Positions 36,665-64,000 of a DNA stretch of 64,000 bases are shown piece by piece. A program made the translations under genes and the position numbers. Positions within the stretch are counted from its first letter, which is position 1; every line of letters begins with the position of its first letter. The notes below the pieces were generated by a model. That model was not told the origin of the DNA. It did not search any database and worked only from the letters and a program-made list of their open reading frames with translations. The DNA is from Streptomyces exfoliatus (GTDB lineage: Bacteria; Actinomycetota; Actinomycetes; Streptomycetales; Streptomycetaceae), in NCBI RefSeq assembly GCF_000725545.1, contig NZ_JNZP01000026.1, positions 18,731 to 82,730 of the forward strand, in the 5' to 3' direction.

Positions 36665-36779
36665 CCGTCCCCGCGGGACCGCCCCGCGCTCCCCGCCCGG
36701 CCCCGGAGCGCCGGACCGGCGCCCCCCGGCCCCGTCCGCACGGCGGCCCCGGGGCTGCCCCGACCGAGGAGTCGCCGAC

Positions 36780-39260: not shown

Positions 39261-39312
39261 CCCCCTTAGTCCGCCCCGAGACCGACCCCACCCCCCATGG
39301 AAAGCAGGGAAC

Positions 39313-39681: not shown

Positions 39682-39690
39682 CGGACGGGT

Positions 39691-39716
39691 GGCCGGTCCC
39701 GTGCACGGGACCGGCC
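39691..39716 (+). terminator. 26-bp perfect palindrome between STAS and PP2C-like genes
   Basis: GGCCGGTCCCGTG followed by its exact reverse complement, 10 bp after the STAS stop. As RNA it forms a strong hairpin and may lower read-through into the next gene. Confidence 0.6.
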
Positions 39717-39739
39717 CAGGGAAGAGGAAGAGGAGGACC

Positions 39740-40915: not shown

Positions 40916-41033
40916 CAACTGTATCCTTGGGGCAACACCTGGCGGCTGCCCGGAAGAACGCCGTCAAGGACGACCAGAGGTGGCAATGAGGACATGGGGT
41001 GTGCGTACGGCCGGAGCCGGCGTCGCGCGGGGA

Positions 41034-41546
41034 TCAGGCCGAACTGACGTCCTTCAGCGGCGTGCGGGCGGGTGACGAGACTGCCTCTCCGCCCCCTCCC
41101 ACGGCCTCGTGGAAGCCGGTGAGCCCCCGCAGCAGCGCCTTGCGACTCGTCGGCGACATGTTCGCGATGACCGCGAGCAGGGCCTCCTCGCGCTGGGTCC
41201 TGAGGTCCCGCAGGTACGCCTTGCCGTGCACGGTCAGGTGTAGCTCCAGCTGCCGACGGCTCACGGGGCTGGGCAGCCGCTGCACGAAGCCCAGCGCCTC
41301 CAGCCGGTCGCACATGCGGCTCACGGAGGGCGGTGCGGAGCCGAGCAGCTCGCCCAGGGTGCGCAGGCTGATGCCCTCCTCGCGGTCCAGGCTGTACAGC
41401 ACGCGCAGCTGACTCGCCGAGACGGGTGTCGACGACACCATGTCCCGGCCGCGCTCCCACAGCACCTCCAGCAGCTCGATGAGCTCCCGGGCGGACTCGG
41501 CCGTCCGCTGCGGTTCCCGCGGCGGCGGGGCGGGGTTGCTGTTCAT
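41034..41546 (-). CDS. MarR-family transcriptional regulator
   Basis: 170 residues from the ATG at 41546 (GAGGAGGAT 10 bases upstream). Winged helix-turn-helix of the MarR type: SASQLRVLYSLDREEGISLR, TLGELLGSAPPSVSRMCDRL recognition region, EALGFVQRLPSPVSRRQLEL wing, and helices for dimerisation on both sides. The 20-residue N-terminal tail is Pro-rich. It lies on the opposite strand between two PP2C-like genes and probably controls the divergent 41642 gene and itself. The ligand is unknown. Confidence 0.9.
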   Translation of the reverse strand: MNSNPAPPPREPQRTAESARELIELLEVLWERGRDMVSSTPVSASQLRVLYSLDREEGISLRTLGELLGSAPPSVSRMCDRLEALGFVQRLPSPVSRRQLELHLTVHGKAYLRDLRTQREEALLAVIANMSPTSRKALLRGLTGFHEAVGGGGEAVSSPARTPLKDVSSA

Positions 41547-41641
41547 GCCTGCCGATCCTCCTCGGACGTCCCGGGCCGGGTACGGCGGCCTTGCGACGGA
41601 CCGGTCATCTCCACATCTCTCCAGAAGGCGGTACGGATCCA

Positions 41642-42865
41642 TTGGATCGACACGCGACAGTGGGTGGCGCACTGCGCGGGGCGGCACCACACCTCCTCCT
41701 GGACTCCCTCCGTACCAGTCTCGCGCACCTGCACGCCGCGACCTCCGCCGACCTGCTGCTCGTCGACTACGGCTTCACGACCCTGCGCCCCGTGGAGCCC
41801 GTCCAGACACCTGCCGGGATGGCGCACACGCCCGTGGACGCGGGCCCCGCCGGCCGCGTCTTCCGCACCCAGCAACCATATCTTTTCCGTGATGTCGGGC
41901 CCACAGCGACCGTTTACCTGCCCGTCACGGTCCGCGGCGACCGATTCGGCGTCCTGGTCGTCGTCCTGCCCGCGGACCGGTCCACCTCGGAGACCACCGC
42001 GAGCCTCGCCCGGGTCGCGGAGACCCTCGGACACGCCCTGCGCGTCGCCGACCGCCACACCGACCTGTACCGCCGCACCCGCAGGACGCACGCCCTCAGC
42101 GTCGCCGGGGAGATGCAGTGGGACACCCTGCCGGGCCGTGCCTGCGCCGGACCGGCCTTCGACCTCCACGCCCACTGGGAGCCCGCCTACACCTCCGGAG
42201 GACACCTCCTGGACTGGAGCGCCACCGAGCGGGACCTGGTGATCGTCGTCGCCGACGGCGCCGGCCCCGGAACCCCGGCCGCCCTGGCGAGCACTCTCGC
42301 CCTGACGGCGATCCGCAACGCCCGGCGGGCCGGGCTCGACCTGGTGACCCAGGCCAGCCTCACCGACCAGGCGCTCTACGGGCAGTACCGCGGCGAGCAC
42401 CCGCTCTCCGCCCTGCTGCTCCGACTCGACCTGACCACCGGCGAGGCCGAGGTGGTGGACGCCGGGTCGCCGACGCTCTGGCGTGTCCGCTCCACCGTGA
42501 CCGAGCGCATCGAACTGGACCGCCAGCTGCCCCTGGGCATGTTCGAGGACACCGTCTACACCCCCCAGCGCCTGCGCCTCCTGCGCGGCGACCGGCTGGT
42601 CTTCGTCGCCCACGGCACCGGAGAGCCGACGGCCGGCGACGGGCACGAGGCGCCGGACGGTCCCGTCGTCCGCGCCCTCACCGGCGCACGCCGGCGGAAG
42701 GGCGCGGACGTCCCCCGGGCCGTCGTACGGGCACTGCGCGGGACGCCCCGTGGCGCGCCGGACGCCGTCCTCGTACTCTGCCTGGACTGGCGCGGCCACG
42801 AGGCCGGGACCCCGGACGAGGGACGGCACGGGGCGCCCACGCCGACCGTGCCGGCGTCCCCTTGA
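41642..42865 (+). CDS. SpoIIE-like PP2C protein, degenerate (copy 2)
   Basis: 407 residues if started at the TTG at 41642, chosen because the start then aligns with copy 1 (both continue to ALR-AAPH); AGAAGGCGG lies upstream, and a TTG at 41591 is the alternative. Same layout as copy 1: GAF-like unit (LRPVEPVQTP, LPVTVRGDRFGVL) then PP2C fold. The first metal block is GGHLLDW (His188 in place of Asp), the second ADGAGPG keeps Asp, the TDG block is AHGTGE, and the last DD is PD. So nearly all other metal ligands are lost and it should not be a phosphatase. Divergent from marR; 112 bp before the RsbW-like gene. Confidence 0.8.
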   Translation: MDRHATVGGALRGAAPHLLLDSLRTSLAHLHAATSADLLLVDYGFTTLRPVEPVQTPAGMAHTPVDAGPAGRVFRTQQPYLFRDVGPTATVYLPVTVRGDRFGVLVVVLPADRSTSETTASLARVAETLGHALRVADRHTDLYRRTRRTHALSVAGEMQWDTLPGRACAGPAFDLHAHWEPAYTSGGHLLDWSATERDLVIVVADGAGPGTPAALASTLALTAIRNARRAGLDLVTQASLTDQALYGQYRGEHPLSALLLRLDLTTGEAEVVDAGSPTLWRVRSTVTERIELDRQLPLGMFEDTVYTPQRLRLLRGDRLVFVAHGTGEPTAGDGHEAPDGPVVRALTGARRRKGADVPRAVVRALRGTPRGAPDAVLVLCLDWRGHEAGTPDEGRHGAPTPTVPASP

Positions 42866-42977
42866 CACGCTGTCGGCGGGTGTGATCCGCGTGCGGGCGG
42901 TGTGGGAACCATGAAGAGGGGAAAAGCGGGTACGAGGAGCCCAGCCGCCGACCCAGGACGAGGGGAGTGCCAGCGTC

Positions 42978-43463
42978 ATGACGGACGCGATCACCGCGGA
43001 GCGCGCGGTCCCGGAGCCCCTGCTGTCCGCGGGCGCCGTCTACGACGACGCCTCCGGCGGCGGGGCCATCGCCTCAGCCCGCGCCTTCACGGCCGACTTC
43101 CTCGCGGCCGCCCCGATCGTGCTGCCCGGACCGGTCGCTCAGGAGCGCGTCGATCTCGCGCAGCTGGTGGTCAGTGAGCTGGTCACCAACGCGATCCGGC
43201 ACACGGCGGGCCCCTGCCGGCTGCTCCTCGAACTGGGCCGCGACACCTTGGAGATCTCGGTCTTCGACCAGGAGGCCGCCGCCCCCGTGCCCCGCGGCCA
43301 CGACCCCCGCCGCATCGGTCAGCACGGCGTCGAGATCGTCGTCGCCGTCTGCGAGAGCGTGACCGTGGAGCCCGCCCCGGAGGGGAAGCGGGTCCGCGCC
43401 CGCCTCTCCCTCCTGCCGGAGTACGCCGACACGGCGAACCCGCCGGGCCGGCGATCGAGCTGA
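42978..43463 (+). CDS. RsbW-like ATP-binding anti-sigma kinase
   Basis: 161 residues from the ATG at 42978 with GAGGGGAG upstream. HATPase_c of the RsbW/SpoIIAB type: N-box LVVSELVTNAIRHT, LEISVFDQEAAAPVPRG in place of a full G1 box, and G2 RIGQHGVEIVVAVCE. Such proteins phosphorylate STAS antagonists and bind sigma-B/F factors. It is the only one in this island and so the natural partner of the STAS proteins at 39313 and 47149 and the sigma factor at 48262. A GGGTAC hexamer lies at 42928-42933 but lacks a fitting -35. Confidence 0.88.
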   Translation: MTDAITAERAVPEPLLSAGAVYDDASGGGAIASARAFTADFLAAAPIVLPGPVAQERVDLAQLVVSELVTNAIRHTAGPCRLLLELGRDTLEISVFDQEAAAPVPRGHDPRRIGQHGVEIVVAVCESVTVEPAPEGKRVRARLSLLPEYADTANPPGRRSS

Positions 43464-43576: not shown

Positions 43577-43834
43577 TCACCGGTGCTCGTTCGCCCTGCG
43601 GCGGGCCCGGCGTTCCAGCGCATGCCGCTCGGTCTCGGTCAGGCCGCCCCACACGCCCGACGGCGGGTGCGGCTGCGCCAGGGCCGAGCGCAGGCACGGT
43701 TCGCGTACCGGGCAGCGCCCGCAGACTCTCTTGGCCTCCTCCGCCTGGGCGAGGGCGGGGGAGCCGGTCCCCACCGGGAAGAACAGATCGGGGTCGACCT
43801 CCTGGCAGGCCGCTGCCGCACGCCAGCCGTCCAT
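43577..43834 (-). CDS. WhiB-family Fe-S transcription regulator
   Basis: 85 residues from the ATG at 43834, which has AGGAGG 5 bases upstream; the ATG at 43852 has none. Four cluster ligands are at Cys10, Cys38, Cys41 and Cys47 (CQEVDPDLFFP, VCGRCPVREPC), then the GVWGG turn at 60-64 and a basic DNA-contact tail RRARRRANEHR. Wbl proteins hold a 4Fe-4S cluster, bind region 4 of the housekeeping sigma factor and respond to O2 or NO. Which Wbl subgroup this is cannot be settled by eye. It faces the RsbW-like gene convergently inside the signalling island. Confidence 0.92.
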   Translation of the reverse strand: MDGWRAAAACQEVDPDLFFPVGTGSPALAQAEEAKRVCGRCPVREPCLRSALAQPHPPSGVWGGLTETERHALERRARRRANEHR

Positions 43835-44369
43835 GTGAGCCTCCTGGCACATGAGTAGGGATTCGTTCCCCGTTCGCCTGACCGCTCGTCTGTTTGTGAA
43901 ACCCGGGCGGGACCGCTCCGGCGCGTCACCGGGGCGCTCGCCGCGGACCGCGGGGGACGGGGGCGACGCCCCACCACGTCATCGCCACACCGACACCGAA
44001 CACCAGGACCAGCATGACCGGCACGACGTCATCCTTCCGGGAGCGGACCGCGTTCGAGGTTCCGACTGACCGCGAACACCACGCCGAAACGCCTTCCGCC
44101 GTCATCGGTCGGGCTCAGCCGGGCGGTGCGCGACTTCACGGGCGGTCACGAGACCGGCGACGGCCGGGCGGTCCTCGTCCTCACCGCCACCCGAGGACCG
44201 CCTCCGGTGAAACTCCTGTGCCGGAACCGTGGGGATACTGCGGGGAAGCGCCGGATGCGTACCGGAAGAGGGGGGTTCACTTGTTGTGCGGCGCTCACTC
44301 CGCAAGGGTGGACGGACGAGCTGTCGTCGAGTGGGGAAGGTGGCGGGCCACTACGCGAGGGCCACGCTT
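43835..44369. other. 535-bp gap between whiB and PP2C genes
   Basis: It should hold the promoters of both divergent genes. On the minus strand GGGTTTCACAAACAG near 43880-43905 is an A+T-richer patch upstream of whiB. A 32-codon minus-strand frame at 43926-44024 is listed on its own. No other gene is supported. Confidence 0.45.
43926..44024 (-). CDS. Possible 32-aa membrane peptide
   Basis: Starts at the GTG at 44024 with GGAAGGAT about 8 bases upstream. One clear membrane helix (VPVMLVLVFGVGVAMTWWGV) and a basic Arg/Pro tail, ending in TGA. It has the shape of the many one-helix peptides of streptomycetes, but length alone makes it uncertain. It lies upstream of whiB in the same direction. 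Confidence 0.3.
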   Translation of the reverse strand: MPVMLVLVFGVGVAMTWWGVAPVPRGPRRAPR

Positions 44370-46052
44370 ATGACTGTTTTCGAAGACGAGTACGGCCGCT
44401 CCCGGGAAACCCCGGGAGCGGAGGGCACCTCCTGGCTCGGCTCTCCGTATCCGGCCGTGGTGGCCGACCGGGAGGGCGGGGTCGTGGAGTTCAACGCCGC
44501 CGCGGCCGACCTCTTCCCGCGGATGGGGGTCGGCAAGTGGCTGGACGAGGTCGTCCCGGGATGGCTCGCCGACGCACACCGGAGGCTGTCCCGCCCGGCA
44601 CGCACACCGGCCGCCGCGGCCCCGACGCGGGCGGGGCCCGCCCCGCTGCGCGGCAGCCACGACGGCCGGCTCCTGAGAGCCCACCCCACCGATTCCGGCC
44701 ACGGCGACGTGGCCTGGTGGCTCGTCGACGACTCCGACCTGACGGCCGCACAGGACGCCCTGCGCGCCGAACGGGAGCGCACCGCGCTCCTGGCCGAGGC
44801 GTCCACGCAGCTGCTGGCCTCGCTCAACCCCGACCGCTGCCTGGAGAAGACGGCCCTCCTCGCCGCCGCTCACCTCGGCGACGCGGCCCTCGTGATCTCC
44901 CCGCCCGTGCGGAACCGCTGCGCCGTGGTCACCGCCCTGGGCGGGGGATGCAAGCGGACCCAGCTCACCCTGGACCCGGCCCTCGTGCCCGGTCTCGCCG
45001 AGGCACTGCAGGGCTTCCCGCCGGTGCCCGCCCGCTGGATCGACCCGGCCGAACTGCCGTCCTGGGCCGTGCCCGAGGGCTTCGGAGGAACCCCCGGAGC
45101 CGTCTCCATCACCCCGCTGCCCGGCCACGGCGTGCCCGCCGGAGCCCTGATCCTGCTGCGGCGCGGCGGGCGACGGGCCTTCGACACGTCCGAAGAGCTC
45201 TTCGCCCGGCTGTTCGCCGCCCGCGCCGGCGCCGCCCTCTCGGCCGCCCGCCTCTACGCGGAGCAGGCCCGTGTCACCCGTGCGCTGATCGCCGAACTCC
45301 TCCCGCCGCAGCTCCACCACGTCGGGGGAGTCGACTTCGCCGGCGGCTACCGCACGTCCCAGGACACCGAGCGGATCGGCGGCGACTTCTACGACGTGCA
45401 CGCCGGCACCGAGGACGGCCAGGAGACGCTCGCCGTCCTCGGTGACGTGTGCGGGAAGGGGCTGGACGCCGCCGTGCTCACGGGCAGGATCCGCAGCACC
45501 GTGCAGGCCCTGCTGCCCCTCGCGGGCGACCACCAGGACGTCCTGCGGCTGCTCAACGGCGCCCTGCTGACCGCCCGTCACACCCGTTTCGCCACCCTGG
45601 TCCTGGCCTCGGTGCGGCGCACGGGCGGCCGGGTGCGGCTCCGGCTCACCAGCGCCGGCCACCCCCGCCCGCTCATCCTGCGCGCCACGGGAGAGGTGGA
45701 GGAGGCGGACACCGGCGGAACCCTGGTGGGCGCCCTCCCCGTGGTCACCAGCAGGTCGGCGACCGTGGACCTGTCGCCCGGCGAGACCTGCCTGCTCTAC
45801 ACGGACGGGATCACGGAGGCCCGCGGGGGGCCGCTCGGCTCGGCCATGTTCGGCGAGGACCGGCTGCGCTCCGCGCTCGCCGAGTGCGTGGGGCTCCCGG
45901 CCGAAGCCGTCGTCGAGCGCGTGCAGATGGTCGCCGGGGACTGGGTGGGCCGCGGTCCTCACGACGACATGGCCGTCGTCGCCATCACCGCGCCGCACAC
46001 CACCCATCTGTCCGCGGTGAACGGCCACACCCGGGGCAGGTACACCGCATGA
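44370..46052 (+). CDS. PAS-GAF-PP2C phosphatase, first gene of B12 operon
   Basis: 560 residues from the ATG at 44370. An N-terminal PAS-like unit (SPYPAVVADREGGVVEFNAA), a linker helix, a GAF-like domain (about 150-295), and an intact SpoIIE PP2C domain from about 310. Metal blocks: GGDFYDV (Asp339), LGDVCGKGLDA (Asp359), YTDGITEARGG and PHDDMAVV. Its stop overlaps the start of the B12-binding gene (ATGA), and that gene overlaps the STAS gene, so the three are translated as a unit. It should dephosphorylate the STAS protein of the same operon, under control of its own sensors or of the B12 protein. Confidence 0.9.
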   Translation: MTVFEDEYGRSRETPGAEGTSWLGSPYPAVVADREGGVVEFNAAAADLFPRMGVGKWLDEVVPGWLADAHRRLSRPARTPAAAAPTRAGPAPLRGSHDGRLLRAHPTDSGHGDVAWWLVDDSDLTAAQDALRAERERTALLAEASTQLLASLNPDRCLEKTALLAAAHLGDAALVISPPVRNRCAVVTALGGGCKRTQLTLDPALVPGLAEALQGFPPVPARWIDPAELPSWAVPEGFGGTPGAVSITPLPGHGVPAGALILLRRGGRRAFDTSEELFARLFAARAGAALSAARLYAEQARVTRALIAELLPPQLHHVGGVDFAGGYRTSQDTERIGGDFYDVHAGTEDGQETLAVLGDVCGKGLDAAVLTGRIRSTVQALLPLAGDHQDVLRLLNGALLTARHTRFATLVLASVRRTGGRVRLRLTSAGHPRPLILRATGEVEEADTGGTLVGALPVVTSRSATVDLSPGETCLLYTDGITEARGGPLGSAMFGEDRLRSALAECVGLPAEAVVERVQMVAGDWVGRGPHDDMAVVAITAPHTTHLSAVNGHTRGRYTA

Positions 46053-47152
46053 GCACGCAGACCACCACCTCGACCGCCGATCTCGCCGCCACCCGCCGAC
46101 AGCTGTGGGCGGCCCTGGAGGCGAGGGACGAGCCGGCGGCCACCGCCGCCGTCCTCGGTGCCCACGACGCCGGGGTCCCGGTCGAGGACCTCCTCCTCGA
46201 CGTGATCGGCCCCGTCCAGGCCAAGGTCGGCGCCGAATGGGCCGCCGGCCGCATCGGGGTCGCCCAGGAGCACGCCGCCACGGCCATCCAGGACCGTGTC
46301 GTCGCCGCCCTCGCCCACCGCACGCCGGACGGGACCGGACCCCGGCCGGAGACCGGGGAGGCACCCCGGCGCGTCACCGTCGCCTGCGTCGACGGCGAGT
46401 GGCACGCCCTGCCCGCCCGCCTCCTCGCGGAGGTCCTGCGCGGCCGGGGCTTCCTCGTCGACTACCTCGGGGCGCACGTCCCGACCCCTCACCTCATCGC
46501 CCACCTGCACCAGACCGGCGCGGACGTCGTCGCCCTCTCGTCCTCTCTGCCGGTCCGGCTCCCTGCCGCCCACGCCGCGGTCACCGCCATCCAGGCCATC
46601 GGGCTCCCCGTCCTCGTCGGTGGAGCCGCCTTCGGCCCCGACGGCCGGTACGCCCGCCTGCTGGGCGCCGACGGGTGGGCGCAGGACGCCCGGGCCGCCG
46701 CCCGTCTCCTCGCCGCCGGCCCGCCGCGTGCGGACGCGGCCCGGCCCGCCGCCGGCGACCTGCCCCATCTCGCCGACCAGGAGTACACCCTGGTCACGCG
46801 CGCCCGGACCCAGCTGGTCCGCCAGGTCCTCCAGGGCCTCGAGGACGCGGTCCCGGCGATGGCCTCCTACACCGACCGGCAGCGGGAGCGGACCGCCGAG
46901 GACGTCGCCCACATCGTCGACTTCCTCGGAGCGTCCCTCTACGCGGACGACGCCGAGCTGTTCACCGGCTTCGTCACCTGGACCGCCGGGATCCTCCGGG
47001 CCCGTGGTGTCCCGGGCGACGCCCTGATCGCCGCCCTCGACCTGCTCGCCGACGCCCAGCACGACTTCCCCCGCGCGCGGGGGCACCTCGCCGCCGGGCG
47101 CCGGGCCCTCCTCCGCGTACCCGCCCCACCGGCCCCAGGACCCCGCTCGTGA
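46049..47152 (+). CDS. B12-binding sensor-like protein with CarH motif
   Basis: 367 residues from the ATG at 46049. Residues 10-95 form the methionine-synthase-like helical cap and contain Trp64-x9-Glu74-His75 (EWAAGRIGVAQEH), the W-x9-EH motif of CarH/LitR photoreceptors. Residues 108-230 are a B12-binding Rossmann domain: the DxHxxG loop appears as GEWHALP with His119 as likely lower ligand, then GADVVALSSSLPV and LPVLVGGAAFGPDG. The last 120 residues are helical (RQVLQGLEDAVPAMASYTD), like the C-terminal part of some photoreceptor-coupled proteins. It has no MerR DNA-binding domain, so output should be by protein contact. The His next to the Trp in CarH (light-state ligand) is Ala65 here. 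Both ends overlap neighbours by 4 bp. Confidence 0.88.
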   Translation: MSTQTTTSTADLAATRRQLWAALEARDEPAATAAVLGAHDAGVPVEDLLLDVIGPVQAKVGAEWAAGRIGVAQEHAATAIQDRVVAALAHRTPDGTGPRPETGEAPRRVTVACVDGEWHALPARLLAEVLRGRGFLVDYLGAHVPTPHLIAHLHQTGADVVALSSSLPVRLPAAHAAVTAIQAIGLPVLVGGAAFGPDGRYARLLGADGWAQDARAAARLLAAGPPRADAARPAAGDLPHLADQEYTLVTRARTQLVRQVLQGLEDAVPAMASYTDRQRERTAEDVAHIVDFLGASLYADDAELFTGFVTWTAGILRARGVPGDALIAALDLLADAQHDFPRARGHLAAGRRALLRVPAPPAPGPRS

Positions 47153-47550
47153 ACACCCCCGACCACACCTTCGACGTCAAGGCCGCCGCCGCGCCCGACA
47201 GCGTCCTGTACGTGACGCTCGCCGGCGACCTGGCCTGGGACAGCGCCGAGGAGCTGCTGGACGCGGCCCGGGCCCATCTCGATCCGGCCTCCGCGCCGAC
47301 GGACCTCCGCGTCGACTGCGCCGGCCTGACCCTGTGCGACTCGACGGGCCTCTCCGCCCTGCTGGCCCTCCACCGGCTCGCCCGGGCCGCGGGCGTCTCG
47401 CTGCATTTCGACCGCAGACCGCCCTTCCTCGACCGGCTGCTCCTCCTCACCGGCACGTACGAGCACCTGACGAGCCGGTCCGAGACCGCCGGGCCCGACG
47501 GCGGCATCCCGAGCGGCGCGGCGGAGGGCCCTCGTCCCGCCGGTCCCTGA
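47149..47550 (+). CDS. STAS-domain anti-sigma factor antagonist (B12 operon)
   Basis: 133 residues starting at the GTG at 47149, which overlaps the stop of the B12 gene (GTGA). RsbV-like fold: SVLYVTLAGDLAWDSAEEL, DLRVDCAGLTLCDSTGLSAL, then RAAGVSLHFDRRPPFLDRLL. The phosphosite is Ser65 in DSTG. It completes a PP2C / B12 sensor / STAS module and probably targets the RsbW-like kinase at 42978. The last 25 residues are a Gly/Pro-rich tail. Confidence 0.9.
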   Translation: MNTPDHTFDVKAAAAPDSVLYVTLAGDLAWDSAEELLDAARAHLDPASAPTDLRVDCAGLTLCDSTGLSALLALHRLARAAGVSLHFDRRPPFLDRLLLLTGTYEHLTSRSETAGPDGGIPSGAAEGPRPAGP

Positions 47551-47684: not shown

Positions 47685-48110
47685 ATGCCCCAGCACCCCG
47701 TCGCGCCGCTCCCCGCACCGCGCGTCCTCACCCAGCCCATCACCATGGAACTGCTCACCCCGGACGCGGCGGCCCCGATCGACACGACCGTCGGCTACGA
47801 CTCCCGCGACCCCCACGCCCTGAGCATCGCCTTCCACCTTCCCGGTGAGGACCCGGTGGTGTGGCGCGTCGACCGCGAGATGGTCCTCACCGGATCGCTC
47901 CAGCCCACCGGCGACGGCGAGATCCGGCTCCGTCCCGCCCCCCACGGCGGACTTCTCCTGCGGCTCGGGCCGGCGGGCCGGCGCGCCGTCGTCAGGTGCG
48001 AGCAGGAGGCGCTGGTCCGCTTCGTGCGCGACACCTTCGTCCTGGTGCCGCAGGGCACGGAGGAACGGCACATCGACTGGGGACCGCTGCTCGCGTCCCT
48101 GAGGCGCTGA
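47685..48110 (+). CDS. SsgA-like (SALP) sporulation/cell-division protein
   Basis: 141 residues from the ATG at 47685 with CGGAGGA as RBS. The SsgA family pattern is clear: ITMELLTPDAAAPIDTTVGY, DSRDPHALSIAFHLPGEDPV, VVWRVDREMVLTGSL, GEIRLRPAP, and the final HIDWGPLLASLRR. SALPs control septum placement and peptidoglycan during sporulation-specific division and exist only in morphologically complex actinomycetes. The paralogue (SsgA to SsgG) cannot be told. It lies between the B12/STAS operon and the sigma factor gene. Confidence 0.92.
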   Translation: MPQHPVAPLPAPRVLTQPITMELLTPDAAAPIDTTVGYDSRDPHALSIAFHLPGEDPVVWRVDREMVLTGSLQPTGDGEIRLRPAPHGGLLLRLGPAGRRAVVRCEQEALVRFVRDTFVLVPQGTEERHIDWGPLLASLRR

Positions 48111-48261: not shown

Positions 48262-49119
48262 GTGACGGTCACCACGATGTCGACCACGGGAGTCGAGTCC
48301 GGAGCGGGGACGCTGCCGCAGATCCCGGACACGTTGGCGGTCGCGCCCAAGGACGCGAGGGTTCTGTCGAAGGTCTTCTTCCAGGAGCTCGCGACGCTGG
48401 AGGAGGGGACGCACGAGTACCAGTACGCGCGCAACACCCTCATCGAGATGAACATGAGCCTGGTCCGCTACGCCGCCGGGCGGTTCCGCCACCGCGCCGA
48501 CGAGATGGAGGACATCGTCCAGGTCGGCATGATCGGTCTGATCAAGGCGATCGACCGGTTCGAGCTGTCGCGGGAGGTCGAGTTCACCACCTTCGCCGTC
48601 CCCTACATCGTCGGCGAGATGAAGCGGTTCTTCCGGGACACCTCCTGGGCGGTGCACGTACCCCGCCGGCTCCAGGAGGCGCGGGTGGAGCTGGCCAAGG
48701 CGACCGACGAACTCAGCACCCGCCTCGGCCGGATGCCGACGGTCAAGGAGCTGGCCGACCTGATGAGCCTCACCGAGGAGGAGGTCACCGAGGCGCGGCT
48801 GGCCTCCAACGGCTACAACTCCTCGTCGCTGGACGCCGCCCTCGGCGGCGAGGACGAGGACGGCGACGCCTCGCTGGCCGACTTCATCGGCAGCGAGGAC
48901 CCCGCCATGGCGCTGGTGGAGGACTTCCACTCGCTGGCCCCGCTCATCGCCGACCTCGACGAGCGCGACCGCCGGATCATCCATCTGCGGTTCGTCGAGG
49001 AACTGACCCAGGCTCAGATCGGTGAGGAGCTGGGCTGCTCGCAGATGCACGTCTCGCGGCTGCTCGCGCGCACCGTGAAGCGCCTGCGCGAGGGTCTGCT
49101 GGGCACCGGCGCCGGCTGA
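48262..49119 (+). CDS. Sigma-B/F-family RNA polymerase sigma factor
   Basis: 285 residues starting at the GTG at 48262 (AAGGGGAATG upstream). Regions 2-4 are present: LVRYAAGRFRHRADEMEDIV and QVGMIGLIKAIDRFELSREV (region 2), FTTFAVPYIVGEMKRFFRD (2.3-2.4, typical of sigma-B/F/G), ELSTRLGRMPTVKELADLM (region 3), and HLRFVEELTQAQIGEELGCS with QMHVSRLLARTVKRLR (4.2). Such factors are held by RsbW-like kinases and freed by STAS antagonists. All needed partners are encoded in the preceding 16 kb. Streptomycetes have several paralogues, and the exact name cannot be given by eye. It ends at a long bidirectional hairpin. Confidence 0.93.
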   Translation: MTVTTMSTTGVESGAGTLPQIPDTLAVAPKDARVLSKVFFQELATLEEGTHEYQYARNTLIEMNMSLVRYAAGRFRHRADEMEDIVQVGMIGLIKAIDRFELSREVEFTTFAVPYIVGEMKRFFRDTSWAVHVPRRLQEARVELAKATDELSTRLGRMPTVKELADLMSLTEEEVTEARLASNGYNSSSLDAALGGEDEDGDASLADFIGSEDPAMALVEDFHSLAPLIADLDERDRRIIHLRFVEELTQAQIGEELGCSQMHVSRLLARTVKRLREGLLGTGAG

Positions 49120-52899: not shown

Positions 52900-54069
52900 G
52901 TGCACTGCGATGTCGTCGTCATCGGCGCCGGGGCCGCCGGGCTGTCGCTCGCGTGGCGGCTGCTCCGGCCTCCGCCCGGGTTCGACGTCCCTTCCGTCGT
53001 CCTGATCGACGCGCCCCCGGGTCCCCTTCGTCCGCCGCCGCGCACGTGGTGCTACTGGGAGCAGGGCCCCGGTGACTACGACGCCTGGCTCGAGGCCTCG
53101 TGGAACAGCCTGCGGCTCCGGACGCCCGGCGGGCCACCGGTCCGGCGGGACTTGGGCCGGCTGAGCTACAAGATGCTCACCTCGGAGTCGTTCAGCCGCG
53201 CCGTGCGGCCGCGGCTGACCGGGCTGCGCGTGATCGAGGCGGTCGCGGACGGCATCGCGGACCGAACCGACGGCGTCACCGTCTCCTGCCGCGCCGCCGA
53301 CGGCACCGAGCAGCGCGTCCAGGCGCGCTGGGCCTTCGACAGCCGCCCGCCGGCTTCCCGGCCGCGCGCCCGTGTCCGCCTCCTCCAGCACTTCCAGGGG
53401 TGGTTCCTCCGCACCGAGCGGCCCGTCTTCGACCCTCACACCGTCGACCTCATGGACTTCCGCACCCCGCAGCCCCCGCACGGACTCTCCTTCGGGTACG
53501 TGCTTCCGCTGTCCAGCAGAGAAGCGCTCGTCGAGTACACCGAGTTCGGGAGGGAGCCGCTGACCGACGACGAGTACGACGACGCCCTGCGGCACTACAC
53601 GGGAGCCGTCCTCGGCCTCGGAGCGTTCGACGTACGCGCGGTGGAACGTGGACGCATTCCGATGACCGACGCCCGGCACGACCGTCGTGCGGGCATGAGC
53701 ACCTTCCGGATCGGCACGGCCGGCGGAGCCGTACGCCCTTCCACCGGCTACGCGTTCGCCGCGATCCAGCGGCAGACCCGCGCCGTGGCGACCCTCGTCC
53801 ACTCGGGCCGGGTGCCGCTGCCCCCGGCGGCGTACCCGGGGCGCTCCCTCGCGATGGACGCCGTGCTCCTGCGCGGCATCGACACCGGCAGGCTCTCCGG
53901 ACCCGAGTTCTTCACCCGCCTCTTCGAGAGCGTCCCGGCCGAACGCCTCCTCAGGTTCCTCGACGGCGGGACGAAGCCGTACGAGGAGTTCCGCATCGGA
54001 CTGCACACCCCCCTCGTCCCCATGCTCCGCACCACAGCGGAGATCCCCTTCCTCGCCCGCCGCGCCTGA
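52900..54069 (+). CDS. crtY: Lycopene beta-cyclase CrtY
   Basis: 389 residues starting at the GTG at 52900 (GAGAGGAG before it). FAD/NAD-binding start CDVVVIGAGAAGLSLAWRLL, the cyclase blocks PRTWCYWEQGPGDYDAWLE and WAFDSRPPAS, LQHFQGWFLRTERPVFDP, MDFRTPQPPHGLSFGYVLP, VEYTEFGREPLTDDEYDDAL, GRIPMTD, and AGGAVRPSTGYAFAAIQRQ. It cyclises both ends of lycopene to beta-carotene, a membrane-associated flavoprotein of the CrtY/CrtL type. crtU follows 33 bp later in the same direction and uses its product. Confidence 0.93.
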   Translation: MHCDVVVIGAGAAGLSLAWRLLRPPPGFDVPSVVLIDAPPGPLRPPPRTWCYWEQGPGDYDAWLEASWNSLRLRTPGGPPVRRDLGRLSYKMLTSESFSRAVRPRLTGLRVIEAVADGIADRTDGVTVSCRAADGTEQRVQARWAFDSRPPASRPRARVRLLQHFQGWFLRTERPVFDPHTVDLMDFRTPQPPHGLSFGYVLPLSSREALVEYTEFGREPLTDDEYDDALRHYTGAVLGLGAFDVRAVERGRIPMTDARHDRRAGMSTFRIGTAGGAVRPSTGYAFAAIQRQTRAVATLVHSGRVPLPPAAYPGRSLAMDAVLLRGIDTGRLSGPEFFTRLFESVPAERLLRFLDGGTKPYEEFRIGLHTPLVPMLRTTAEIPFLARRA

Positions 54070-54102
54070 GCCGGCGAGCCTGCCACGAGAGCGAGCCCAG
54101 CG

Positions 54103-55671
54103 ATGCGCTTCACCCGGTACGGCACCGCAGAGCGAGGCCGTGACCGCAACGCGGTCGTCATCCCCGCGGCCGACGGATCGCACCGAGCGGACGCCCGCCT
54201 TCGGCCCACGTGCTCCGTCGTGGGCGGCGGGATCGCGGGAATCGCCGCGGCCACGATCCTCGCCGAGCGTGGCGTCGACGTCACCCTCCACGAACGCGAG
54301 CCCACCCTCGGCGGACGGCTCGCCGGCTGGCAGGACCGGCTGAGTGACGGATCCGAGGTGACCATGAGCCGGGGGTTCCACGCCTTCTTCCGTCAGTACT
54401 ACAACCTCCGCGGTCTCCTCCGCCGGGTCGACCCCGGACTGGAGCGGCTCACCGGGCTCCCGGACTATCCGCTCCGGCACAGCTCCGGCCTCTGCGACAG
54501 CTTCGCCAGGGTGCCCCGTACCCCGCCCCTGAGCGCCCTCGGATTCGTGGCGCTCAGCCCGAGCTTCGGCTGGCGGGATCTGGGCCGCATGAACGCCCGG
54601 GCGGCACTGCCCCTGCTCGACGTCCGGGTCCCCGACGTGTACCGGCGTTACGACGGAGTCAGCGCCCGCGACTTCCTCGACGCCATCGGCTTCCCGCCGG
54701 CGGCGCAGCACCTGGCTTTCGAGGTGTTCTCCCGCAGCTTCTTCGCCGATCCCGGTGAACTGTCCGCCGCCGAGCTCGTCCTCATGTTCCACATCTACTT
54801 CCTCGGATCCTCCGAGGGGCTTCTGTTCGACGTACCGGACGAGCCGTACCCGCAGGCACTGTGGGACCCACTGGCCTCCTACCTGCAGGGCCACGGCGTC
54901 CGCATCCTGACCGGGACCGGGGTCGAGGAGATCGCCCCGGCCCCCCACGGCGGGCACATCGTCTCCTCGTCGGCGGGTGCGCGGCACGCGGACGCCCTCG
55001 TGCTCGCCACCGACACCCAGGGGCTCCGGATGATCGCCGAAGCATCCCCGGCCCTGTGCGACCCGCCGTGGCGTGCCATGGTCCGCGCACTGCGCACGGC
55101 CCCGCCCTTCCTCGTCTCCCGCCTGTGGCTCGACCGGCCCGTGGGCGCGCGGCGTCCCGGCTTCCTCGGGACCAGCGGATACGGCCCCCTCGACAACATC
55201 AGCGTCCTCGACCGCTGGGAGGGAGAAGCCTCCCGCTGGGCCCGCCGAACAGGCGGCTCCGTGGTCGAGCTGCACGCCTACGCGGTGCCCTCCGGAGCCG
55301 ACCCCCGCGTCGTCTCCCACGAGCTCGTCGCCCAGCTGCACCGCGTCTGGCCCGAGACGCGCGGCGCCGTGATCCTCGACCAGCGGCACGAACTGCGCTC
55401 CGACTGCCCGCTCTTCGAGGTGGGAGGGCACCTGAACCGTCCCACCGTCCACACACCTGATCCCACCGTCACGGTCGCCGGGGACCTCGTCCGTACGGAG
55501 TACCCCGTCGCGCTCATGGAGCGGGCCGCCACCACCGGGTTCCTCGCGGCCAACGCCCACCTGCGCCGGTGGGGGCTCCGCGGCCAGACCCTGTGGACCG
55601 TTCCCGCGGCAGGGCGCTCGGCCGCCCTGAGGCTCCTCGCCCGGGCGGGCACGTCAGCGGCGGACGGGTGA
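54103..55671 (+). CDS. crtU: Carotenoid desaturase/methyltransferase CrtU (isorenieratene type)
   Basis: 522 residues from the ATG at 54103. A CrtI-like flavoprotein: TCSVVGGGIAGIAAATILAE and REPTLGGRLAGWQDRL at about 38-70, MSRGFHAFFRQYYNLRGLL, then AFEVFSRSFFADPGELSAAE, VALMERAATTGFLAAN at the FAD-binding C-terminus. CrtU converts the beta-rings of beta-carotene to aromatic rings with methyl migration, giving isorenieratene. Streptomycete crt clusters have it beside crtY, as here. Length is typical. The N-terminal 35 residues are variable. Confidence 0.88.
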   Translation: MRFTRYGTAERGRDRNAVVIPAADGSHRADARLRPTCSVVGGGIAGIAAATILAERGVDVTLHEREPTLGGRLAGWQDRLSDGSEVTMSRGFHAFFRQYYNLRGLLRRVDPGLERLTGLPDYPLRHSSGLCDSFARVPRTPPLSALGFVALSPSFGWRDLGRMNARAALPLLDVRVPDVYRRYDGVSARDFLDAIGFPPAAQHLAFEVFSRSFFADPGELSAAELVLMFHIYFLGSSEGLLFDVPDEPYPQALWDPLASYLQGHGVRILTGTGVEEIAPAPHGGHIVSSSAGARHADALVLATDTQGLRMIAEASPALCDPPWRAMVRALRTAPPFLVSRLWLDRPVGARRPGFLGTSGYGPLDNISVLDRWEGEASRWARRTGGSVVELHAYAVPSGADPRVVSHELVAQLHRVWPETRGAVILDQRHELRSDCPLFEVGGHLNRPTVHTPDPTVTVAGDLVRTEYPVALMERAATTGFLAANAHLRRWGLRGQTLWTVPAAGRSAALRLLARAGTSAADG

Positions 55672-55726
55672 GGGGAAGCGGCCGCGACAGAAGGGACGCC
55701 GAGCCACCGATGTACAGCGGTGCGGC

Positions 55727-56749
55727 TCACGAGCCCGGGAACCTCCCCGTGCTCCGCAGCTGCCAGCGCCGCTCCGCGTACGCCAGGTCGTCACGCCACA
55801 GGCGCCCGGACGCCGAGCGCATCGCCGGCCGCAACAGAGGTGCCAACGCCTTGGCCACCGCGAATCCCGGCCGGTCCGACGTCGCCATGACCGCCTCGAC
55901 CACGGCCGTACGCGGGCGTGCCGTTCCGACGGGGGTCAGCGGGGTGGCGTGTGTCTCGACCACGGAGCCGGCGCCTTCGCCCTCCGCGATCCGCATGGTG
56001 ACGGTGCGGGGCTCCGGCGCGGTGAAGACCGCCGTCACCGGCACCACGACGCGCCCGGAGACCTTGAAGGAGACCCGGACGACCAGGGCGTCCTCCTCGT
56101 CGGGGACACCGCCCACCGGGGCCGACAGGACCTCCAGGTCCACGAAGGAGTACGGATGCAGCCAGGCGCCGTGCCAGGGATCGAGACGGTTGGCGACGAC
56201 ATCCTCCGCCTCGCAGATGCCGACGCCGGTGTAGACGGCCGTGACGGCCCGGTCCACCGGCGGCCGCGACGGCACCACAGGCCGTTGCGTGGGCTCCTCC
56301 CCGCCGACGCGGTCCAGCCGCACCCACACCAGTACGCCGTCGTCGTGCACCGGCCAGGGGTCCCACCCCGCGAACGGGGAGCCGTCCAGGGCAAGACCGT
56401 GCCAGCGGCAGATCAGGGTCCCGCACCGCACCACCCCGTCCTTCAGTGCGGCCCCGAGGTGGGGGCAGACACCCGGACCCGCGTGGAGAGCGCCGTGGGC
56501 GTCCCGCCACAGCACCGTCTCGGTGCCCGCGACGGTCCTGCCGGTGGGCCGGTCCGCGCGAATCCCACGGCTCGCCCCCACGACGTACCAGTTCCCGGAG
56601 GGCCGGGACGACGCCCGCTCGAGTCCGGCGGCGATCTCCGAAGCGCGGGCCTGCCGCCACGTCGCCCGCTGCTCCTCCCAGGCCCCCGCGTGGCGCCGGA
56701 AGCTCAGCGGCAGACGGGGCCGGTCGTCCTCGGGCCGTGGATCCGTCAC
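55727..56749 (-). CDS. Rieske 2Fe-2S / DUF5914 protein of crt cluster
   Basis: 340 residues starting at the GTG at 56749 (AGAGGGG upstream), 13 bp after crtB. Residues around 60-150 are a Rieske domain: SGNWYVVGASRGIRADR, VCPHLGAALKDGVVRC (Cys-x-His), and LICRWHGLALDG (Cys-xx-His). The remainder (VVANRLDPWHGAWLHPYSFV onward) is a DUF5914/ring-oxygenase-like catalytic or binding fold. Genes of this type accompany crtB in streptomycete clusters; a role in tailoring or electron transfer to carotenoid is likely but unproven. An alternative is that it only guards the pathway, without hydroxylation. Confidence 0.82.
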   Translation of the reverse strand: MTDPRPEDDRPRLPLSFRRHAGAWEEQRATWRQARASEIAAGLERASSRPSGNWYVVGASRGIRADRPTGRTVAGTETVLWRDAHGALHAGPGVCPHLGAALKDGVVRCGTLICRWHGLALDGSPFAGWDPWPVHDDGVLVWVRLDRVGGEEPTQRPVVPSRPPVDRAVTAVYTGVGICEAEDVVANRLDPWHGAWLHPYSFVDLEVLSAPVGGVPDEEDALVVRVSFKVSGRVVVPVTAVFTAPEPRTVTMRIAEGEGAGSVVETHATPLTPVGTARPRTAVVEAVMATSDRPGFAVAKALAPLLRPAMRSASGRLWRDDLAYAERRWQLRSTGRFPGS

Positions 56750-56762
56750 ACCAGGTCCCCTC

Positions 56763-57779
56763 TCATGCGCTCGTTCCCTTCTGCCCGGCCGACGGACGCG
56801 CGCGGCGCTCCTCCGGTGGGCGCCCCCGGGAGAGGGCGGGGCGCCCCGTGCGCAGACCGACGCGTGCTTCCAGCGCCCGCACGAGACCGGGCAGGGCGAT
56901 CGACGCCCGCCGGCGAGCACCCACCACGGCCCGTCGGTGCACCACCGCGTACCCCTCCCTCTCGATCACCGCCAGGATCTCCCGGTACAGCACGAATGCG
57001 GTGCGCACACACGGGGCCGACACAGGATCGAGGAGAGCGATGCCGGGCTCCGCCTGACGGTAGACGCCCTGCGTGAGGGCGGCGGCGTCACCCAGGGCGG
57101 CCGTGATGCGCCGGTCGCGGCACCCCGTCCTCCGGCTCCACCGCAGCAGGTCCCGGTCGACGCCGGACGCGGCCAGCAGGTCGGCCGGGAGGTACACCCG
57201 GCCCCGGTCCAGGTCCTCTCCGACATCGCGGAGGAAGTTCGTCAGCTGGAACGCGACGCCCAGCGCGGCCGCGTACGGCTCGGCTTCCTCCCGGGGGACG
57301 ACGGTCCCGAGGACCGGCACCATCTGGAGGCCGATGACGGCGGCCGACCCGTGCATGTACTCGCGTAGATCGGCGTACGTCGCGTACTCCCGCACGAACA
57401 GGTCGCTGCGCATGGACGCGAGGAAGTCGTCGAAGTGACGCGCGGGGATGTCCAGGCGTTCGCGGGTGTGCGCGGCCGCCGCCACCGCGGGATCCGTCGT
57501 CGATCCGCCGCGCAGCGCACGGCGCCATTCGGCCTCCAGTGCGTCCAGTGCCGCCGCCCGCTCCGCGGGCGACGTGGAGGCCGTCTCGTCCACGATGTCG
57601 TCCGCGCGCCGGGCGAAACCGTAGAGGGCGTGGACAGCGCTGCGGCGTTCGAGCGGCAGAAGGCGCGTGGCGAGGAAGTACGTCCTCCCGTGGCGGGCGT
57701 TCAGCCTCCTGCACTCCGCGTACGCCACCCGCAGTGCCCGGTCGTGGATCCGGGCCGCGTCGAGCTCCCGGGCCGTCAC
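56763..57779 (-). CDS. crtB: Phytoene synthase CrtB
   Basis: 338 residues starting at the GTG at 57779, which overlaps the crtI stop (GTGA). Squalene/phytoene synthase fold with first aspartate motif DDIVDE at 60-65, [20 protein letters not shown] before it, and the second motif in [18 protein letters not shown]. It condenses two GGPP molecules head to head to phytoene, at the membrane. It is the third gene of crtE-crtI-crtB and is followed by the Rieske gene. Confidence 0.94.
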
Positions 57780-59311
57780 GAGACCTCCCGTCGACCGGCC
57801 GCGACGGGCGCCCGGCGACGTGGAGCCCTGCCGGGAGGTCCCGTGATCCGCTGCGCGGCCAACTTTCCCGAGATGAGCACGGGGGGCACGCCGACACCCG
57901 GTGTGGTTCCGCAGCCGGCGAGGACGACGTTCTCCGTTCCGCGGACCAGGTTACGGGGACGGAACGGGCCGGTCTGGGCGAAGGTGTGCGACACCGAGAA
58001 GGGGGTGCCCGCGGTGTGCCCCCGGGCGGTCCAGTCCGCGGGCGTCACAAGGCACTCCGCGTCGATCGCGTCACCGAACCCGTCGAGTCCCCGCCGTTCG
58101 AGTTCGGCGACGATGGAGTGGCGGTAGGAGGGGCCGAGTTCACCCCAGTGGCGCCGGCCGGGGCCGATCTCGGTGTTCGGGCAGGGGGCCAGGACGTAGT
58201 GGAGATGACGGCCGTCCGGGGCCAGTGTCGGATCGGTGGCCGTGGGCCGGGAGACGAGGAGCGACGGGTCGGTCATCAGCTCCCCGTTCCGGGTGATCTC
58301 CTCGAACGTGCGTGACCAGGCCGAGCCGAACAGGAGCGTGTGATGCGCGAGTTCGGGCCACGTACGCGTCGTGCCCGCGTGCAGGATCACCGCGCTCGGC
58401 GAGTGTCTGGTCCGGACAGGCCGCCTGGGCGTGCGGCCCAGGAGGCGGTAGGCGAGGGGGAGCTCCGTGGTGAGCACGACGCTGTCGCACCGGATCCGCC
58501 CGTGCTCCGTCAGGACGGCGGTCACGCGTGCCCCCGACCGCTCCAGGCCGGTGACGCGCTCCCCGTACCGGATCCGGGCGCCGGCCCGACGGGCCGCGTC
58601 CGCCATCGCGGCGGGCACCGCGTGCATCCCGCCCCGGGGGAAGTGCACCCCGGCCACGGTGTCCATGTAGGCGATGACCGCGTAGGCCGCGAGCGCTCGT
58701 GAGGGCGGCACCCCCGCGTAGAGGGCCTGGAAGGAGAACACGCGCTGCAGCCGCTCGTCCTTCAGGAAGGAACCGATCGCCCGGTCGAGTCTTCCCAGTC
58801 CGCCGAGCGCCGCGAGACGGGCGAGGTCGGGATGGAGAAGCTGTGCGGGCGAGTCGAAGTTCGCGCCGATGAAGCGGTGCTCCTGAACCGCGTAGAGCCT
58901 GCTCAGCCAGGCACGCATCCGGAGGTATCCGTCCGCCTCCCGGGCACCGGCGAAGCGCTCGACCTCCGCGGCCATGGCGCCGGCCTCCGTGTGGACGTCG
59001 ACCCGGCTGCCGTCCCAGAACAGGGCACGGTACGCAGGGTGCAGCGGAACGAGCTCCACCCGTTCGCGGAGGGACTCACCGACGGCGGCGAACGCCTCGT
59101 CCAGCAGGGCGGGCATCGTCAGGACCGTGGGCCCGGTGTCGACCTGGAAACCCTCCAGATCCATCCTCCCGGCCCGCCCGCCGGGCCCCGCCTCCCGCTC
59201 GACGAGGGTGACCTCCCGCCCGGCGCCGAGCAGATGGAGGGCCGCGGACAGGCCGGCGAAGCCCGCCCCCACGACGACCACGTGGTCCGTCCTCCCCGGA
59301 ACCCGCCTCAA
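57776..59311 (-). CDS. crtI: Phytoene desaturase CrtI
   Basis: 511 residues if started at the TTG at 59311, preferred because GGGAGGAG lies 5 bases upstream and TTGA overlaps the crtE stop; a GTG at 59338 adds 9 residues. FAD motif [20 protein letters not shown] with [20 protein letters not shown], then [17 protein letters not shown], a middle [20 protein letters not shown], and the C-terminal [22 protein letters not shown]. It introduces four double bonds into phytoene to make lycopene. The 4-bp overlaps on both sides show a tight operon with crtE and crtB. Confidence 0.93.
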
Positions 59312-60495
59312 CGGACTCCTCCCGTCACTGTCTCGCACTGCGGAAGCGCCGGTCCGGCGCGGCTCACGTCGTCCGCGGCCTGCTCAGGACCGGCGACGTC
59401 GGCGGGGGAGAGGCCGGCGGCGTCGATGAGGAGCCGGACCAGCCGCTCGGTCGGCTCCGCGGCCAGGTCCGCCTGCCGGAGCGCGTCCACCGCACGCGCG
59501 GAGAGTTCCGCCACGCGCGCCGCGACGTGCGCGCGGGCGCCGTGCGCCACGAGGAGGTCGAGGACGCGGCTCAGCTCGGCATCCGTGGCCGAGGAGCGGC
59601 CGACCACCGTCTCCAGCAGCTCCAGCCCTTCGGTGTCGCCCCGCCGCACGCACCGGGCGTGCGCCACGGCCAGGAGGTAGGTGGCCTTGCCCTCGCGGAG
59701 GTCCTCTCCGGCGGGTTTGCCGGTGTGCTCCGGGCTGCCGAAGGCTCCTTGGAGGTCGTTCTGCAGCTGAAAGGCGATGCCCGCGCAGAGTCCGGCCTTG
59801 CGCAGTCCCCGCACCGTCCGCTCGGAGGCCCCCGCCAACAGGGCACCGAGGACCAGGGGGTACGCCGACGAGTACCCCGCCGTCTTCAGGACCGCCGTGC
59901 GCATGGCCCGCCCGGGTGACCGCGAGCCGGTCACCTGTGTGTGCAGGTCCAGGTACTGCCCGGCGGCCATCTCGTTCCTCATCGCGCGCCACTGAACACC
60001 CAGCGCGGCCGAGTGCGGGGTGCGCAGCAACGCCTCCATGAACACGTCGTCCGCCCAGGCCAGGGCCAGGTCACCTGCCAGAACGGCAGCCGACCTGCCG
60101 AAGTCCGCTCTGGTGTCGTCGCGTCCCCGCGTCCCGTTCTGGCGGGAGAGAGCGACGTGGACGGCGGGCTCACCCCTGCGGAGTCGGGAGCCGTCCATGA
60201 CGTCGTCGTGGATGAGGGCGCAGGTCTGGATCAGCTCCACGGCCGCGGCCGTACGCAGGGCGACACCGGCCTCGTCCCGCCCGCCGCCCGCTGCTCGCAT
60301 GGCCCACCACAGCAGCTGGGATCTGCGGCGCCGACCACCCGCCGTGAACGAGATCACTCGCCGCGCGATATCCGTGGCGAAAGCCGCCTCGACGGCCTGG
60401 ACCTCGGCGAGACGCTTGCGCAGCAGGTCGTCGAGCACGATGTCCAAGGCCGCGGGGACATCCGCGTCGACGGTCGGTGGGTCGAGAGTGTGCAT
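59308..60495 (-). CDS. crtE: Geranylgeranyl diphosphate synthase CrtE
   Basis: 395 residues from the ATG at 60495 (AAGGAAACCCC upstream). Polyprenyl synthetase with the first Asp-rich motif LIHDDVMD (97-101), a basic RLRRGEP nearby, GQYLDL, and KTAGYSSAYPLVLGALLAG. The second Asp-rich motif reads QNDLQG (245-250): the first Asp is Asn, while ND and the following EDLREGKATYLL are kept. This may alter metal binding or product length, but many CrtE variants work. Supplies GGPP to CrtB. First gene of the minus-strand operon, divergent from crtT. Confidence 0.92.
   Translation of the reverse strand: MHTLDPPTVDADVPAALDIVLDDLLRKRLAEVQAVEAAFATDIARRVISFTAGGRRRRSQLLWWAMRAAGGGRDEAGVALRTAAAVELIQTCALIHDDVMDGSRLRRGEPAVHVALSRQNGTRGRDDTRADFGRSAAVLAGDLALAWADDVFMEALLRTPHSAALGVQWRAMRNEMAAGQYLDLHTQVTGSRSPGRAMRTAVLKTAGYSSAYPLVLGALLAGASERTVRGLRKAGLCAGIAFQLQNDLQGAFGSPEHTGKPAGEDLREGKATYLLAVAHARCVRRGDTEGLELLETVVGRSSATDAELSRVLDLLVAHGARAHVAARVAELSARAVDALRQADLAAEPTERLVRLLIDAAGLSPADVAGPEQAADDVSRAGPALPQCETVTGGVR

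Positions 60496-61687: not shown

Positions 61688-64000
<2,313 letters not shown>

Follow-up and report, generated by a model that had tools for sequence, protein, structure and literature searches.

A conserved phosphatase–photocobilin operon in Streptomyces exfoliatus as a probable light-gated partner switch

The DNA analysed here, a stretch of 64,000 nucleotides from Streptomyces exfoliatus (contig NZ_JNZP01000026.1) that we refer to as the window, contains an operon of three genes encoding a PP2C/SpoIIE-type phosphatase, a B12-binding protein and a STAS anti-anti-sigma protein (Table 1). Further downstream lie a sigma factor gene (48262) and a carotenoid (crt) cluster. The middle protein of the operon is almost certainly a full-length homologue of photocobilins, photoreceptors that use both adenosylcobalamin (AdoCbl) and biliverdin, and in all 150 loci compared the photocobilin gene is directly preceded by one for a PP2C phosphatase; the latter observation is the new point of this analysis. 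Judging from sequence comparisons, we consider it probable (at roughly 0.62) that the operon encodes a light-gated partner switch that works without DNA binding. An earlier sequence-only reading of the same DNA had proposed a B12 photosensor acting by contact on a partner-switch phosphatase, and the photocobilin homology together with the constant upstream phosphatase makes this proposal a probable one.

We regard the identity of the sensor as settled by homology. In a PDB search, residues 12–355 of the middle protein matched the crystal structure of the photocobilin SasPcob (8J2X) with an E-value of 2.8e-79, the photoglobin half included, and residues 29–333 matched the AbDPcob photoreceptor (8J2Y) at 1.2e-38; CarH/LitR-type PDB entries matched the B12 half alone, at 3e-10 to 4e-9. 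Pfam assigned the B12-binding (1.7e-18) and B12-binding_2 (9.2e-12) domains, the B12 half scored 50.8 of 400 bits against the NCBIfam family TransRegCarH, far under its cut-off, and no MerR domain was matched in the middle protein by Pfam up to an E-value of 1. A CarH/LitR-like DNA-binding regulator was rejected because this domain is missing. The sequence-only reading had correctly named Trp64-x9-Glu74-His75, His119, Ala65 and the missing MerR domain; it described a CarH-like B12 sensor and overlooked the C-terminal photoglobin domain. The protein is thus no orphan CarH fragment. Nor is the sensor as new as that reading supposed, since photocobilins have already been described (Nat Commun 2024, PMC10979010). 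According to the accessible text of that paper, they bind AdoCbl and, non-covalently, biliverdin, are sensitive to green and red light, and act in trans on a diguanylate cyclase, changing its activity; SasPcob is a dimer in the dark and a monomer in the light, and STRING networks predict its potential interaction with STAS, SpoIIE and PP2C proteins. The AdoCbl-binding region of the window protein holds Gly61-x-x-Trp64, Glu74-His75, Gly116-x-x-His119 and Gly141-x3-Pro145, invariant in 25 homologues, as well as Glu117-x-His119, and so carries all four parts of the light signature GxxW, EH, GxxH and GxxxP as given in the accessible part of PMC11796333. Heme oxygenase, the source of biliverdin, is also encoded in the window's genome, a co-occurrence that is uninformative because 268 of 295 Streptomyces genomes, an even draw from the genus, have the enzyme.

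The cofactor contacts are strongly conserved. Those compared, in SasPcob numbering, were Trp61, Glu71, His72, His108, His137, Asp270 and Trp296, corresponding to Trp64, Glu74, His75, His119, His148, Asp285 and Trp311 of the window protein, and all seven AdoCbl/biliverdin contacts are identical in the 82 rows of an alignment made of 80 relatives, the window protein and SasPcob. Across 70 Streptomyces loci (defined below), the AdoCbl residues Trp64, Glu74, His75 and His119 are kept in all 70, and the biliverdin-site residues Asp285, Trp311 and His148 in 61, 57 and 60, respectively. Distant photocobilins, paired with PP2C and lacking a STAS match, occupy loci L112–L125; most of their biliverdin-site residues are changed. 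After the Trp, 81 of the 82 rows have Ala and SasPcob alone has Gln; in the 70 loci this position is Ala in 55, Glu in 8, Val in 6, Gln in 1 and His in none. The light state of SasPcob has water or hydroxide as the cobalt ligand and no bis-His coordination (PMC10979010, accessible text). Since Ala is usual in relatives and SasPcob, with its Gln, has a water-ligand light state, Ala65 speaks for the aquo-cobalamin light state already described rather than for new chemistry. We therefore rejected an unusual chemistry of Ala65, and with it the earlier suggestion that this residue implies a different light-state chemistry or the sensing of cobalamin itself.

The 150 loci, the window's own included, consisted of 80 named relatives, the best of 359 (Streptomyces, Mycobacterium, Amycolatopsis, Nonomuraea, Nocardia, Nocardioides, Saccharothrix and others), and 70 Streptomyces loci from the 295 genomes, a subset of the places found there that took in the locus of the window and the 29 ranking next to it, together with 20 low-scoring loci and 20 others; species may occur in both sets. 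A PP2C match of 54–93% identity lies directly upstream of the photocobilin in 80 of 80 named relatives, and in 70 of 70 Streptomyces loci the upstream match ends at most 295 bases before the photocobilin match. In L075 and L112, the match covered only a 3′ part of PP2C. The pairing persists at 14 Streptomyces loci whose photocobilins are only 37–46% alike, and SpoIIE-domain matches in the whole 7.9-Mb genome number only 37. The three reading frames overlap by 4 bp each, at ATGA and then GTGA, just as the sequence-only reading had stated. These exact overlaps are retained at the PP2C/B12 junction in 75 of 80 relatives and at the B12/STAS junction in 65 of the 70 relatives where STAS was found; with start codons occurring at a frequency of 0.032 per position, they are not due to chance. 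Window-type STAS genes lie downstream in 70 of the 80 named relatives. Of the PP2C–B12–STAS order whose conservation the earlier reading had proposed to check, the first pair is constant and the STAS part frequent. In L030, the PP2C frame continues through the photocobilin gene, which hints at a frameshift, or an error in sequencing, close to where the two genes meet. No natural PP2C–photocobilin fusion was present among the matches listed (120 of 2195 and 120 of 2147 homologues), where a length limit excludes longer photocobilin fusions.

An AlphaFold model of the phosphatase (mean predicted local distance difference test score 79, predicted TM-score 0.48) suggests a PAS-like domain (residues about 22–121), a helix, a GAF-like domain (about 154–300), the PP2C domain (321–540) and a conserved disordered tail. 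Pfam detects only the SpoIIE/PP2C part, the PAS and GAF assignments coming from the model and from fold matches that include phytochrome PAS-GAF modules; in fold, the phosphatase comes closest to the RsbU/RsbW part of 3ke6. Six conserved PP2C Asp columns, presumably the metal-binding positions, are kept in 79–81 of 81 rows. The tail, counted as at least 7 of 16 matches to the consensus THLSAVDGHTRGRYTA, is present in 97 of the 116 loci with STAS and in 4 of the 20 without it, with 14 undetermined loci dropped and relatedness uncontrolled. The tail is a possible docking motif; the 3′ end of its coding region probably also holds the ribosome-binding site of the photocobilin gene, which may in part explain the conservation. 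The STAS protein has a candidate phosphosite, Ser65 in CDSTG, with Ser at that column in 70 of 71 rows; by analogy to SpoIIAA/RsbV, we take this Ser to be the phosphosite. Because no locus of the 150 lacks PP2C, whereas 32 yielded no STAS match, PP2C is the likeliest direct and primary partner of the photocobilin, and STAS is probably the usual substrate of the phosphatase.

These components suggest the following course of events. In the dark, the photocobilin would bind AdoCbl, with His119 below and the adenosyl group against Trp64, Glu74 and His75, as well as biliverdin (Asp285, Trp311), and would dimerise. Green light absorbed via AdoCbl, or red light via biliverdin, would break the Co–C bond and open the dimer. 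The changed photocobilin surface would then contact the PAS-GAF-PP2C phosphatase translated alongside it, with activation as the most likely effect, and the phosphatase would remove the phosphate from Ser65 of STAS. Dephosphorylated STAS would in turn bind an RsbW-type anti-sigma factor and free a sigma-B-family factor, here perhaps that encoded at 48262. Several parts of this course are inferred by us: that the photocobilin contacts PP2C and in which sense it acts, that STAS is the substrate, which anti-sigma and sigma factors take part, and that carotenoid genes are one output.

Several observations weigh against this scheme or restrict its reach. That light switches PP2C on is a guess, because the sign of the trans effect reverses for SasPcob without biliverdin (PMC10979010, accessible text). 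The phosphatase seems to own PAS- and GAF-like domains, so light may be just one of its inputs. In 32 of the 150 loci, some of which end near contig edges, tblastn gave no STAS match, so the protein is not required everywhere. The 14 most distant Streptomyces loci keep Asp285 in 5, Trp311 in 1 and His148 in 5, so red-light sensing need not be general; these distant photocobilins may be AdoCbl-only sensors, because in AbDPcob weak biliverdin binding is linked to a change at the Asp270-equivalent position (PMC10979010, accessible text). On the output side, just 12 of the 80 relatives have a 48262-type sigma gene within their flanks, and 6 of these 12 belong to the window's clade. The six closest relatives (L001–L006) show no crt match in flanks of roughly 10 kb, so the crt linkage seen here is not common to that clade. 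Finally, a simple sigma-B-like consensus is absent upstream of CrtE (0/8), CrtI (0/16) and CrtY (0/16) in photocobilin-linked clusters.

Two alternatives concern the operon itself. The photocobilin might act on STAS, or on a STAS/anti-sigma complex, with the phosphatase merely an upstream neighbour in the same circuit. We hold this to be rather improbable: translation of STAS is indeed coupled to that of the photocobilin in 65 of the 70 relatives having it, but it is the pairing with PP2C that holds at every locus, including the 32 where STAS was not found. It would be similarly surprising if the operon sensed the supply of AdoCbl or of heme/biliverdin instead of light, with cobalamin occupancy setting phosphatase activity, given that the adenosyl pocket (Trp64, Glu74, His75) is conserved throughout the rows checked and its biliverdin counterpart throughout the 82 close ones, and that SasPcob is photoactive (PMC10979010, accessible text). 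Nor did any cobalamin riboswitch match within the window exceed the Rfam threshold, and riboswitch control was rejected on that ground.

The light-gated switch that we favour needs an anti-sigma factor and a sigma factor, and candidates for both are encoded nearby. The sigma gene at 48262 is one of 7 SigB/SigF/SigG-type genes over cut-off in the genome. Outside the window's clade, such a gene is near the operon in 6 of 74 relatives, a modest excess over random expectation (p 0.002 on the assumption of 7 genes in 7.87 Mb), and 48262 is the genome's best match to the sigma gene that lies between operon and crt genes in S. griseus (L053; 357 bits vs 336.5 for the next). As a conserved part of the operon unit it was rejected, given its presence in 12 of 80 relatives, and the general link to this factor drawn by the sequence-only reading shrinks to the same 12 cases, half of them from one clade. 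Upstream of the operon (32969–43463) lies a dense partner-switch island with a multi-HAMP hybrid kinase, an ANTAR-GAF-PAS-PP2C protein, a STAS protein with FMDSSG, a PP2C, a MarR gene (−), another PP2C and the HATPase. The operon is flanked by a WhiB-family gene (43577–43852, −) and an SsgA-family gene (47685–48110, +), an order retained in L001–L006.

The carotenoid cluster offers a candidate output. Genes of the crt type adjoin the operon, in differing arrangements, at eight of the 80 loci (L030, L035, L037, L041, L051, L053, L067 and L080). In a quickly made tree of 81 photocobilins, four changes of the "crt-linked" label are needed, each imposed by well-supported branches, where shuffling gave a mean of 8.7; four separate gains of linkage are the simplest reading, others being possible. 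In the 295 genomes (photocobilin threshold E ≤ 1e-30, CrtI threshold E ≤ 1e-180), a photocobilin occurs in 112, CrtI in 144 and both in 81 (odds ratio 5, p 2.6e-10, phylogeny uncontrolled). The two share a contig in 37 of these 81 genomes and lie within 15 kb in 11, in several arrangements, for which the probability by chance is 2e-14 under uniform placement or 4e-8 if both lie within 2 Mb, relatedness uncontrolled. We also surveyed 121 of 146 crtI places (19 of the 121 regions are shorter than 19 kb, mostly ended by contig edges). A photocobilin alone is near in 10, a LitR-like MerR-B12 gene alone in 25, both in 0 and neither in 86; a sigma-B-type gene is near crt in 5. Mutual exclusion of the two sensors at crt loci, striking in the first 41 regions, was rejected as non-significant in 121 (Fisher p 0.12). 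In one genome (G061), a photocobilin lies 13.6 kb from crtI with a LitR-like gene in between, and the proximity of LitR to crt is independent of whether the genome has a photocobilin (14/71 vs 11/50). Two loci of the window's own genome (L153 and L155), on contigs other than that of the crt cluster, show the LitR-like W...EH and ExH pattern, with MerR and B12-binding confirmed for L155 only.

The main output may instead be the general stress or sporulation partner switch, the crt linkage being mere gene clustering in variable chromosome regions, and we give this a substantial chance, though short of even. It fits the SpoIIE/STAS/HATPase/Ssg/WhiB neighbourhood, the 31 of 112 photocobilin genomes without CrtI at threshold, the 70 of 81 genomes with both in which they were not seen within 15 kb (with only 37 of 81 having both on one contig), the bare flanks of the six closest relatives and the missing sigma-B-like sites upstream of linked crt genes. 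Less easily accommodated are the 11 genomes with close linkage in several arrangements and the four changes on the tree. Among 62 clusters that have neither a photocobilin nor a LitR-like gene, 3 do show the sigma-B-like consensus ahead of CrtE, and the one such site before crtY in the window (52835, −) is directed away from crtY. In S. coelicolor, the known light route runs through LitR, LitS and the crtE promoter (PMC12705666, accessible text). Our literature search found no link of photocobilins to carotenoid clusters and no test of the phosphatase, within a coverage that did not extend to PMC8717448 (a photoglobin paper that may describe part of the neighbourhood) and PMC11908464. Carotenoid genes as one output are plausible, if with the odds against them. 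We put forward only tentatively that the photocobilin–PP2C(–STAS) operon is a second B12-based carotenoid light switch in Streptomyces, independent of LitR, responsive to green and red light through phosphatase partner switching and repeatedly adjacent to crt. The crt gene order of the window recurs in other crt clusters and fits the crtEIBV/crtYTU order described in the accessible part of PMC5993118. Adjoining the cluster is a gene (61688–63823, −) that matches FkbM methyltransferase and has an NRPS-like region.

Table 1. Operon, candidate partners and carotenoid genes in the window (positions counted from its first nucleotide)
Feature	Position	Strand	Basis
PP2C/SpoIIE-type phosphatase, 560 aa	44370..46052	+	Pfam SpoIIE 1.6e-40
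PP2C C-terminal tail, residues 545–560, consensus THLSAVDGHTRGRYTA	46002..46049	+	conserved in STAS-bearing loci
Photocobilin (homologue), 367 aa	46049..47152	+	residues 12–355 align to 8J2X/8J2W, E about 3e-79
AdoCbl-binding four-helix bundle (residues 16–88) and Rossmann domain (108–217)	46094..46699	+	Pfam
Biliverdin-binding photoglobin domain (about residues 243–345), Asp285, Trp311	46775..47083	+	alignment to 8J2X
STAS anti-anti-sigma protein, 133 aa	47149..47550	+	Pfam STAS_2 6.7e-16
HATPase_c_2 (RsbW-like) protein, candidate anti-sigma/kinase	42978..43463	+	Pfam 7e-8; RsbA_anti_sig 1.4e-11, below cut-off
SigB/SigF/SigG-type sigma factor, candidate output	48262..49119	+	TIGR02980 300.6 bits, over cut-off
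Carotenoid (crt) cluster	52900..60495	both	crtI over curated NCBIfam cut-off; other names from sub-cut-off best matches and gene order
crtY	52900..54069	+	sub-cut-off best match and gene order
crtU	54103..55671	+	sub-cut-off best match and gene order
Rieske gene	55727..56581	−	Rieske and DUF5914 matches
crtB	56763..57779	−	sub-cut-off best match and gene order
crtI	57776..59281	−	only crt gene over curated NCBIfam cut-off
crtE	59308..60495	−	sub-cut-off best match and gene order

The function of standalone photocobilins has been called less clear (PMC10979010, accessible text), and the phosphatase upstream at all 150 loci, together with the recurrent crt neighbour, names a candidate partner and a candidate output for them. 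If the proposed switch is real, many actinobacteria would feed green- or red-light input into partner switching, and the operon would provide a usable optogenetic module; its place near the crt genes points to stress or sunscreen genes as what such a switch, acting without DNA binding, might control.

Compared with known systems, the window protein has the same full-length order of B12 bundle, Rossmann domain and photoglobin as SasPcob of Saccharothrix syringae and AbDPcob. SasPcob shares all seven contact residues with it and neither has the CarH-type second His, whereas after the Trp SasPcob has Gln and the window protein Ala. What distinguishes the photocobilin described here is the fixed PP2C, the frequent STAS operon partner and the crt linkage, the comparison being with the SasPcob protein rather than with its operon; in a Saccharothrix relative (L044), PP2C and STAS are both present. 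In M. smegmatis, SigF with RsbW controls crt and isorenieratene is formed in the light, a case of carotenoid control by the sigma-B/F family for which the accessible text mentions no B12 photosensor (PMC4694148); at the window's crt genes no such promoter was found. CarH and LitR share with the window photocobilin the AdoCbl pocket motifs and the association with crt, but the latter has no MerR domain, no bis-His position and an additional photoglobin, which leaves no possibility of CarH-type DNA binding. CarH itself has a His next to the Trp for its bis-His light state. Sigma-B-like control of carotenoids in S. griseus was reportedly described by Lee in 2001. In Bacillus, light enters the sigma-B pathway through the LOV protein YtvA. 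Like the RsbU/RsbP/SpoIIE–STAS–RsbW switches of sigma-B and sigma-F, the window has a PP2C, a STAS protein with the Ser, and a nearby HATPase and sigma-B-type gene. However, RsbU pairs with RsbT, whereas the phosphatase of the window pairs with a photocobilin.

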